From: a virus
IMG/VR virus record: IMGVR_UViG_3300005295_000047
Location: 1-32,313 of that record
Direction: 5' to 3' (one strand)
DNA length: 32,313 bases
Made by a program: the position numbers and the translations under genes
Shown: one piece after another, positions 29,754-32,313 of the stretch
Layout of the letters: each line of letters opens with the position of its first letter
Position numbering within the stretch: position 1 is the stretch's first letter
The notes under the pieces: generated by a model
The model's database searches: none
What the model saw: only the letters and a program-made list of their open reading frames with translations
Told to the model about the DNA's origin: nothing

Positions 29754-29834
29754 ATGCGAGACGAGTATGATGTTCACCGAAAAGCCAATGGTGAGGCCGA
29801 TGATCTCAGAGAGCGTCAAGGCCGGCCTGAATGA
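29754..29834 (+). CDS. Possible 26-residue leader peptide
   Basis: An AAGGAG site lies 12 bases before this ATG, the only strong ribosome binding site ahead of the excisionase-like gene. The peptide (MRDEYDVHRKANGEADDLRE and onward) is highly charged and overlaps the start of that gene in another frame. It may serve to couple translation; it may equally be non-coding. Confidence 0.25.
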   Translation: MRDEYDVHRKANGEADDLRERQGRPE

Positions 29835-30174
29835 CCTATTCCGATCTGGCCCCTTCGCCACCCATAAGGAAGCCGCTGCCTTCCTCAAGATCTCGACGAC
29901 GTGGCTGAGAGAGCTTGGAAATGCCCAGCGAATCGAATTTCACCGGAAAGGCACCTGCCACCGGCTTTACACCCGCGAGAGTATCGAGCGTCATTTGCGG
30001 AGGGAAATCGAATGTCAGTCTACCGACCGAAAAACAAGGCCGGCGAGGATAAGTCGCCCTACTTCCATTTCGATTTCCGCCTCCGGATCCTCGGGCGCGG
30101 GGAAAGCCAGCGGTTTTTCGGCTCAACGGGCCAGACAACGCGCCGAGCAGCCGAGGCCTATGAGACCCGTCTGA
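29767..30174 (+). CDS. Excisionase-like helix-turn-helix protein
   Basis: A 135-residue product as read. Residues about 27-80 (FATHKEAAAFLKISTTWLREL and GTCHRLYTRESIERHLRR) form the MerR/excisionase winged helix-turn-helix: helix, turn, recognition helix and a short wing followed by the closing helix. It lies directly before the integrase, as Xis genes do, and would direct excisive recombination. The frame does not stop where the domain ends: about 54 further residues are encoded inside the integrase gene (163-base overlap) and are of low-complexity Arg/Ser/Pro type. Either the tail is real, or a stop or frameshift has been lost. ATG 29770 is an equivalent start. Confidence 0.65.
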   Translation: MMFTEKPMVRPMISESVKAGLNDLFRSGPFATHKEAAAFLKISTTWLRELGNAQRIEFHRKGTCHRLYTRESIERHLRREIECQSTDRKTRPARISRPTSISISASGSSGAGKASGFSAQRARQRAEQPRPMRPV

Positions 30175-31184
30175 AGGAGTTGGCGGCCAACGGCCGGCTG
30201 TCGAGCACCATGACCGTCGATCAGGCCTGCGAGAAATACTGGGAAGAGGCGGGCAAGCACGGCAAGTCGGCGGACGACGAGGCAAAGAACCTCGAACTGG
30301 TGTCCCGCTATCTCGGCCCCGAGACACTGCTCGTCGCACTGACGCCGGAGATGGTATCCGATGCCGCGCGCCGCAGATTAGAGACGCCGATCGAACGGGC
30401 GCAGAGGATTGGCAACGAGCTGGTGTTGGCGCCGACGAAGCACTTCCCGAAGCCGTCCACCGTCAATAGACAGATCATCGAACCATTGCGCCGGATCATG
30501 AAGCGCGCCAAGACCGTCTGGCGGGTGCCGCTGGATCTGGAGGGGTTCGACTGGGGGCAGCTCGGCTATTCCGAGGGGGCGCCCCGGACCCGGGAGCTAT
30601 CCCAGGAAGAAGAGCAGCGGTTCTGGCAGGCGCTGCGCCCGGATTATCACCAGCTTGCCGAAATGTACATCATCAGCGGCCGGCGTCGGTCGGATTGGAT
30701 CGGCTTGACCAAGTTCAAGATCGACATCACCCAGGGCATCGCCCGGTTCCCGACGCGGAAACGCAAGCAGGCAGGTGAGATCGTGGTCGAGCTGACACAG
30801 CGCGAGCTGGAAATCATCATCGAGGAGTGCGCGAAGGCGCCGACCGCTTCGCATGTCTTCACATATGAAGTACAGCGGGGAAAGCTGAAAGGGCAGCGGC
30901 GGCCGATCACGGCGAGCGGCCTGCGGAAGGAAACCGACCGTGCTTTCCATGAAGCCGGCATCACCGATTTCCGCCGGCACGATTTCCGGCACACTTTTGC
31001 CAGCCGGGCATTGAGAGGGAAGGGCGACCTGCGGTCGCTGATGGCGGCGATGGATCACCAGGACATCTCATCGACGGTCAGGTACACGCATATGGCGAGT
31101 GGTCAAGCGCGGGGTATGCGCGAGGGGGTCACCGTGAACCGTCAGTTACCGGCTAATGTTACGCCGCTGCGGGGGAAGAAGTGA
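30012..31184 (+). CDS. int: Tyrosine recombinase integrase
   Basis: A 390-residue integrase. The N-terminal 60 residues form an arm-binding-type domain and 65-170 a core-binding helical domain (SSTMTVDQACEKYWEEAGKH; TVNRQIIEPLRRIMKRAK). The catalytic domain carries SGRRRSDWIGL (Arg225), HDFRHTFAS (His323-x-x-Arg326), MDHQDISSTVRYTH (His349 and nucleophile Tyr358). All catalytic residues of the family are in place, so it should be active. The ATG at 30012 has a GGAGGG site nearby; the longer frame from 29901 is a shadow of the Xis-like gene. It recombines the adjacent attP (core 31283-31323) with a host tRNA-Pro gene. Confidence 0.93.
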   Translation: MSVYRPKNKAGEDKSPYFHFDFRLRILGRGESQRFFGSTGQTTRRAAEAYETRLKELAANGRLSSTMTVDQACEKYWEEAGKHGKSADDEAKNLELVSRYLGPETLLVALTPEMVSDAARRRLETPIERAQRIGNELVLAPTKHFPKPSTVNRQIIEPLRRIMKRAKTVWRVPLDLEGFDWGQLGYSEGAPRTRELSQEEEQRFWQALRPDYHQLAEMYIISGRRRSDWIGLTKFKIDITQGIARFPTRKRKQAGEIVVELTQRELEIIIEECAKAPTASHVFTYEVQRGKLKGQRRPITASGLRKETDRAFHEAGITDFRRHDFRHTFASRALRGKGDLRSLMAAMDHQDISSTVRYTHMASGQARGMREGVTVNRQLPANVTPLRGKK

Positions 31185-31202: not shown

Positions 31203-31222
31203 GTCCCGGAATTGTACCGGAA
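31203..31222. repeat. Candidate integrase arm site, copy 1
   Basis: GTCCCGGAATTGTACCGGAA, repeated with one mismatch (C for T at the tenth base) at 31421-31440. The two direct copies flank the tRNA-derived core at about 60 and 98 bp, the geometry of arm-type integrase sites. Confidence 0.65.
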
Positions 31223-31240
31223 AGCTTTTGCCGTGACCTC

Positions 31241-31282: not shown

Positions 31283-31323
31283 GCTCCCGAAGCAGGTGCG
31301 CTACCAGGCTGCGCTACACTCCG
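31283..31323 (-). other. attP: attP core: 5' 41 nt of tRNA-Pro(CGG)
   Basis: Read on the minus strand from 31323, the sequence gives the acceptor strand CGGAGTG, the D-arm GCGC-AGCCTGGTA-GCGC, the anticodon 5' stem CCTGC and the loop TTCGGGA with anticodon CGG, then GC. From there it departs from tRNA sequence: the next base breaks the T-A pair of the stem, and no T-arm (GGTTCGAATCC) follows. It is therefore not a whole tRNA gene but the shared identity block used for integration into a host proline tRNA gene. Confidence 0.82.
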
Positions 31324-31337
31324 ATGCCTTGGATGGG

Positions 31338-31365
31338 CTTATACCATAAGGATTCCGCGGGTCAA
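31338..31365 (-). promoter_or_regulatory. Promoter aimed at the tRNA-Pro half
   Basis: Minus-strand TTGACC (31360-31365) and TATAAG (31338-31343) are separated by 16 bases; each matches the consensus in five of six positions. The -10 ends 14 bases before tRNA position 1 (31323). After integration it would drive the rebuilt tRNA-Pro. Confidence 0.65.
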
Positions 31366-31420: not shown

Positions 31421-31440
31421 GTCCCGGAACTGTACCGGAA
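31421..31440. repeat. Candidate integrase arm site, copy 2
   Basis: GTCCCGGAACTGTACCGGAA, 19 of 20 bases identical to 31203-31222 in the same orientation. Confidence 0.65.
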
Positions 31441-31450
31441 TGCCCGGATG

Positions 31451-31600: not shown

Positions 31601-32313
31601 ATGGGACGTCACTCTATTTCCTATGCAGCAGTCCTTGCGGCGATGCTGGGCGCCAGCCCGGCCTACGCTGTGACCTGCTCAACATCGACACCGGTGAACT
31701 CCGGCATCATCTCGGACGCTGGAGGCGTGATCGGTTCCGGCGGCACCTATAATGCGGTCGGAACCGCAGAATGCCCAGATCAGCCAGGACCGACTGGACC
31801 GCAGGGCGTGCAAGGGGTACAGGGCGAGCAAGGCGTTGCCGGTCCTGCGGGTCCGCAGGGTGAAACCGGCGCGACCGGGGCGCAAGGTCCTCAGGGCATC
31901 CAAGGTGTGGCCGGTGCCACCGGTGCCCAGGGTCCTCAAGGCGAGCAGGGCGTAGCCGGCGTGGCCGGCTCGAAGGGCGACAAGGGCGACACCGGCGCCA
32001 CGGGAGCGACTGGCGCCCAGGGTATCCAGGGCGTTGCTGGAGCCACCGGCGCAACAGGTGCGACCGGCCCGAAGGGGGACAAAGGGGATAAGGGCGATAA
32101 AGGCCTTCAGGGCGTCGCCGGCAAGGACGGGCGTGATGGCAAGGATTTCGACCCGAGCGCCTACCAGGAAGGCTTGGCGACCATCGGCGCGCTGAATGTG
32201 CCCCATGTCGAAAAGAACTTCGCCGCTTCGGTCTCCGGCGGCTTCTATAATGACAAGACCGCGATCGGCCTGGGTGGAGCGTTCAAGCTCGACCAGACAT
32301 GGCAGTTCGGCGG
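31601..32313 (+). CDS. Secreted collagen-stalk protein with YadA-type anchor (runs off the end)
   Basis: The gene continues at 1-112 for 259 residues in all. Residues 1-23 are a Sec signal peptide (hydrophobic AAVLAAMLGA, cleavage after SPAYA). Residues 24-62 form a small head with two cysteines (C26, C58). Residues 63-182 are exactly 40 uninterrupted Gly-X-Y triplets (GPTGPQ... GKDGRDGKD), a collagen-like triple helix. Residues 183-259 resemble the YadA anchor: four beta strands after ALNVPHVEKNF, including VSGGFYNDKTAIGLGGAFKLD, split by the typical turn, and ending in Trp. Three chains would form one barrel with a trimeric stalk. Signal peptide and anchor place it on the host cell, not in the virion. 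A GAGAG site precedes the ATG. Confidence 0.82.
   Translation, partial: MGRHSISYAAVLAAMLGASPAYAVTCSTSTPVNSGIISDAGGVIGSGGTYNAVGTAECPDQPGPTGPQGVQGVQGEQGVAGPAGPQGETGATGAQGPQGIQGVAGATGAQGPQGEQGVAGVAGSKGDKGDTGATGATGAQGIQGVAGATGATGATGPKGDKGDKGDKGLQGVAGKDGRDGKDFDPSAYQEGLATIGALNVPHVEKNFAASVSGGFYNDKTAIGLGGAFKLDQTWQFG
32269..32313. repeat. Terminal direct repeat, right copy
   Basis: Identical to 1-45; see that entry. Confidence 0.93.

Follow-up and report, generated by a model that had tools for sequence, protein, structure and literature searches.

Why should a phage carry, next to its integrase gene, the first half of a proline tRNA gene with a promoter in front of it, and what would become of a host tRNA gene into which such a phage integrates? 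A sequence-only reading of the virus record analysed here (the whole 32,313-base stretch, hereafter the window) had proposed that the region is a phage attachment site (attP), that its identity with the host covers the first 41 nt of tRNA-Pro, and that a near-consensus promoter lies just upstream. Integration was expected to join the host's 3' half to a phage-promoted 5' half, thereby putting the tRNA under phage transcription, and to leave the gene's own promoter and 5' half without a 3' half. Our analysis indicates that the relatives of the window phage are alphaproteobacterial and that the window very probably carries the attP of a temperate phage, of a reversed (5'-half) type, for a host tRNA-Pro(CGG) gene.

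A circular record with an integrase beside half a tRNA gene

The window begins and ends with the same 45 bases, and the reading frame of a collagen-like protein that opens at 31601 runs in frame over the end junction to a stop at 110-112 (frame counted by hand). The exact terminal repeat together with a reading frame that crosses the junction identifies the record as a closed circle. Therefore, the half-tRNA region is an attP and neither a host flank nor a host junction. The features of the region are as follows.

1-45 and 32269-32313: terminal repeat, exact identity; the record is circular
29767-30174, plus strand: small HTH protein overlapping the start of int, candidate excisionase (Pfam HTH_17, PF12728, E 4.2e-6)
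30012-31184, plus strand: tyrosine integrase (int), 390 aa (PF00589, E 9.5e-20; phrog_1 integrase, E 3.9e-36)
31203-31225: left 23-nt direct repeat, candidate integrase arm site (P arm), 91% identical to 31421-31443
31283-31323, minus strand: 5' half (nt 1-41) of tRNA-Pro(CGG), attP core, 41/41 identical to a host tRNA-Pro(CGG) gene
31285-31291, minus strand: anticodon loop (nt 33-39), likely strand-exchange region, the crossover being placed from the block ends in relatives
31338-31365, minus strand: predicted tRNA promoter, -35 TTGACC (31365-31360), 16-nt spacer, -10 TATAAG (31343-31338), 10/12 consensus
31421-31443: right 23-nt direct repeat, candidate arm site (P' arm), 91% identical to 31203-31225

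Alignment of the integrase with five relatives demonstrated invariant catalytic residues R225, H323, R326, H349 and Y358, which supply the R, HxxR, H and Y of the Phage_integrase family. The HTH_17 score of the small HTH protein, 27.4 bits, is just above the cut-off of 27, and the position of this protein makes it a plausible excisionase. About 99 bp separate the int stop from the half-tRNA, and ARAGORN detected no complete tRNA gene in the window. The collagen-like Gly-X-Y protein (31601-32313, continuing through 1-112) has a signal-peptide-like start and is transcribed away from attP; after integration its gene would adjoin the rebuilt tRNA.

The half-tRNA and its promoter

On the minus strand, 31323-31283 reads CGGAGTGTAGCGCAGCCTGGTAGCGCACCTGCTTCGGGAGC, with the anticodon at 31289-31287. 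A search for a host tRNA-Pro(CGG) sharing these 41 nt returned the complete gene of another alphaproteobacterium (G213), which is 100% identical over 41 nt (E 1.3e-14). The match to the tRNA gene breaks off at nt 42, two bases beyond the anticodon loop, and past nt 41 the window has no match to the 3' half of tRNA-Pro. The 41 nt represent a minimum block length, as the block in relatives can begin as far as 68 nt before the tRNA. The predicted promoter stops 14 bp upstream of tRNA nt 1 and matches the sigma-70 consensus at 10 of 12 positions; only four sites this good or better occur in the 32-kb window, both strands counted. A preset promoter scan misses TATAAG because it requires a T at the last -10 position. 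The host-like tRNA-Pro(CGG) of another contig (L012) is preceded by TTGACC-16-GATAAG at the identical distance from its tRNA. The 23-nt direct repeats start with GTCCCGGAA[T/C]TGTACCGGAA, bracket both the core and the predicted promoter, and presumably serve as integrase arm sites. The anatomy of the attP can be read directly from the window, and it bears out the earlier proposals of a 41-nt identity block (41/41 on the minus strand), of a promoter just upstream (TTGACC-16-TATAAG) and of an attP, here a closed circle with int adjacent and 23-nt repeats on both sides.

Integration junctions in related elements

Eleven bacterial genomes were found in which a tRNA-Pro 5' half adjoins a related integrase and an intact tRNA-Pro, whose upstream region is element DNA, lies elsewhere. 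In six of them (G077, G143, G005, G087, G230 and G703) both tRNA copies are on one contig and strand, 18-62 kb apart. Two of these are given below.

G077: orphan 5' half at 32462; int 32529-33701; intact tRNA-Pro(TGG) at 50457; 18.0 kb apart
G143: orphan 5' half at 653744; int 653812-655005; intact tRNA-Pro at 707351; 53.6 kb apart

The same pairing of orphan half and intact tRNA-Pro occurs in G722, G219 and G259 with the two ends on different contigs, and in G203 with the two tRNA copies on opposite strands and 563 kb apart, a layout that suggests a later inversion. G264, in which an orphan 5' half adjoins int, was left out of the count, the intact tRNA-Pro(CGG) being absent from its assembly.

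Comparison of the orphan and intact copies in these 11 relatives revealed common blocks of 42-108 nt, which start between nt -68 and nt 1, end between nt 39 and nt 45, in every case take in the complete anticodon loop and stop short of the T arm. An identity block extending across the 3' half, which the sequence-only reading had named as evidence against itself, is absent in the relatives, no block passing nt 45. In the 100 bp that precede nt 1, orphan and intact copies are only 23-56% identical in 9 of the 11 pairs, indicating that the promoter-bearing region has been exchanged. The outcome of integration is visible in several relatives: the hybrid junction anticipated by that reading (element promoter, 5' half and host 3' half) is present in, for example, G077, G143, G005, G087 and G230, and the orphaned host promoter and 5' half that it had also foreseen lie beside int in the same genomes. 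Two congeners of G005, in which the tRNA-Pro(TGG) gene is uninterrupted and has the same gene as its downstream neighbour, provide an empty-site comparison; the upstream genes differ in these congeners, and continuity is therefore proved by the downstream side only.

G001 and G703 have element-type upstream DNA at both tRNA copies and are not clean examples. With their arm-like sites, G001 (L026, L029) and G703 (L104, L095) are best read as successive (tandem) integration or as the scar of an earlier prophage. At a separate locus (L069, in G137), the 1-200 bp past the stop of a broken int hold arm-like DNA, then a promoter and, on the same strand, a complete tRNA-Pro(TGG), as though the host tRNA had kept the promoter of an element since lost.

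The closest relative of the window integrase is a remnant in Rhodomicrobium sp. R_RK_3 (74% over the C-terminus). This remnant adjoins the same 5' half as in the window, and an intact tRNA-Pro(CGG) lies 7.9 kb off, with upstream DNA that matches the window attP at 74% over about 154 bp (E 5e-20). Other full-length close relatives are only 36-40% identical to the window integrase. The genomes searched yielded no lysogen of the window phage, no host of it and no lysogen of a close relative with an intact int, and the viral contig collection held no close relative by int or portal. Searching 385 class-level genomes for int gave no further case than G001, and a DNA search of phage records with the int-attP end matched mostly collagen-like repeats and the tRNA genes of other phages.

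Conservation of the promoter on both sides

The motif TTG[AC] was present 36-52 nt before the tRNA in all 19 element-side upstream sequences, a set that includes two near-copies from each of two genomes, as compared with a mean of 2.4 and a maximum of 8 in 2,000 shuffles and with 0-4 in other intervals of the same sequences. The corresponding host-side sequences have the motif at this distance in 11/11 cases (shuffle mean 1.0). Host and element copies in G077 differ in spacer sequence and agree in the -35 TTGC, the -10 CATAAC and the 17 nt between them; in several relatives the -10 box is a weak match to consensus. Judged by these sequence counts, the element-side promoter is no accident. That of G005 resembles the promoter of its congeners, a likeness from which the element promoter may be a captured host copy. 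The predicted phage promoter occupies the former place of the host promoter and looks like a replacement part for it.

Proposed integration mechanism

We propose that the integrase would recombine attP with the host tRNA-Pro(CGG) gene in its anticodon-loop region, with strand exchange probably occurring within the anticodon loop. Since the tRNA half of attP is antisense to int and lies beyond the crossover, the phage would bring the promoter, the leader and nt 1 to about 41. At the far prophage end, the phage promoter, the phage 5' half and the host 3' half would together constitute a rebuilt tRNA gene, transcribed from a phage promoter that is presumably active. The host gene's own promoter and 5' half would remain beside int as an orphan reading toward int. 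By analogy with its relatives, the window phage would be expected to do likewise in its own host.

An integrase family that uses both orientations

Inspection of the DNA downstream of about 45 related integrases identified 19 with 5' halves antisense to int and 13 with 3' halves in the int sense, the half-tRNAs being located by a motif search after Rfam scanning had missed them. The 19 5' halves belong to proline tRNAs with CGG, TGG and GGG anticodons and, in one case, to a valine tRNA; several of the 13 3' halves are also proline. Closely related integrases are found with opposite halves of tRNA-Pro(GGG), 5' halves in L071 and L078 and 3' halves in L073 and L081, and a 3'-type element of the window's integrase family is present at tRNA-Pro(CGG) (G779/L114). 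In a tree of 29 integrases the orientation label undergoes 5 changes, at least 3 of them forced by well-supported branches, as compared with 9.0 in shuffles; a single clade of 5'-type integrases was rejected by the tree (p-AU 3e-7). Four IMG/VR contigs with the core motif were considered as 5'-type attPs and were rejected, as they hold complete or nearly complete tRNA-Pro genes (one of them is G779).

Because the anticodon stem-loop comes close to being a palindrome, either orientation is in principle open to an integrase. From the anatomy of these sites we infer that a phage must carry whichever half lies beyond the crossover from int. A tentative extension, to which we give somewhat less than even credence, is that an alphaproteobacterial integrase family has repeatedly flipped its use of the symmetric proline anticodon stem-loop and that flipped phages must carry a working promoter. 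The promoters of proline tRNAs would thus have been repeatedly replaced, including at the stacked or scarred sites of G001, G703 and L069, and, with the promoter lying between the presumed arm sites, excision or integration could switch off transcription of the tRNA. We did not find a description of one integrase family using tRNA-Pro both ways in a literature search that ran without key older papers, and no priority is claimed.

The layout of the window recurs in the genomes of Sphingopyxis phage VSN-002, Rhizobium phage RHph_I3_18 and Microcystis phage Mvi-Yong1342-1. In the last of these (PP496355.1, 20114-20163; L016) an alphaproteobacterial-phage-like 5'-type tRNA-Pro half, antisense to the integrase, is annotated as part of a hypothetical protein. 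L061, L062 and L049-L053 form a well-supported integrase clade close to the window's. L061 and L062, its two members with flanking DNA, have no recognisable tRNA half after int, and the clade may use another target.

Alternative explanations

The region could be a product of imprecise prophage excision or of a mis-assembled circle, the promoter and 5' half then being carried-over host flank outside the working attP. A host junction would likewise show a host promoter beside a 5' half, and the host-like tRNA-Pro(CGG) of L012 does have a similar promoter at the same spacing. We nevertheless regard this origin as very improbable, given that the core is flanked on each side by an arm-like repeat, that an intact reading frame spans the closure of the circle, and that the same layout recurs in phage genomes and at integrated junctions. 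Those junctions also bear on the possibility of tRNA-dependent lysogeny, in which only a short core is shared, the host tRNA is destroyed and a phage-encoded tRNA replaces it, as happens with some temperate phages that integrate in tRNA genes (PMC10865867). The relatives rebuild an intact tRNA, the window is without a tRNA gene, and at least 41 nt are shared where such phages share 8-17 bp; this explanation has next to no probability.

The half-tRNA might instead be an RNA in its own right, for example a decoy for an anticodon nuclease or an antisense to int, with its position in attP secondary. Transcription from the promoter would indeed cross the 5' half in the direction of the int 3' end, and a weak terminator-like hairpin lies between the two. 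The hairpin folds no better than shuffled sequences, and the idea of a strong terminator at that place was dropped on these grounds. Integration alone explains why the block boundary falls at the anticodon loop and why relatives have rebuilt tRNAs, and in related 3'-type elements it is the 3' half that is carried. A role as an independent RNA, with the place in attP secondary, is highly unlikely, though the half-tRNA could act as a decoy or antisense in addition to its part in integration. The reading that we retain is that of a working attP of the reversed type.

Comparison with known systems

Most phages that integrate in tRNA genes leave the host promoter driving the target tRNA, whereas the reversed type substitutes it. 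The relatives described here offer natural pairs of promoters, before and after replacement, for a core tRNA, together with sister integrases that act on the same gene in opposite orientation. These pairs and sister integrases make it possible to test what a target flip needs and how a prophage promoter affects proline tRNA expression. Prophage finders that seek only 3' tRNA fragments would misplace the ends of 5'-type elements.

Proline tRNA genes are targets of other alphaproteobacterial temperate phages, namely 16-3 in tRNA-Pro(CGG) of rhizobia (Semsey 2002, by its title as cited in PMC8631192), phiLM21 in tRNA-Pro(GGG) (PMC5537653) and Paracoccus phage vB_PyeM_Pyei1 in tRNA-Pro(TGG), with integration at the 3' end (PMC6536676). 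The phiLM21 integrase is 31% identical to that of the window, and the phiLM21 record has a 3' half beside int. In such 3'-end cases (the Paracoccus phage and phiLM21) the host promoter is kept, while the window type replaces it. The phages with tRNA-dependent lysogeny resemble the window phage in having a tyrosine integrase and an attB in a host tRNA gene and in that the phage maintains tRNA function; they differ in supplying a whole tRNA gene and in the much shorter block that they share.

Elements that on integration exchange the 5' part of a tRNA gene for their own are rare but already known. Islander reported a 5' tDNA fragment in 159 of 3,919 islands (PMC4383910), and an element of Zhao and Williams (2002) is cited for such replacement in PMC6563490. 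In the Islander 5'-fragment islands, as in the relatives analysed here, the 5' part of the tRNA is displaced and the copy of the element takes over. The present case differs in being a free phage attP with its own predicted promoter, and in that one integrase family uses both orientations at the same proline tRNA genes. Archaeal pTN3-like integrases also have the 5' half of a tRNA gene as attB and provide the rebuilt tRNA with an element-borne promoter, a situation described as 'seldomly encountered in bacteria' (PMC8371274). The archaeal elements use the promoter of the integrase gene for this purpose, whereas the window has a separate, predicted sigma-70-type bacterial tRNA promoter that faces int.
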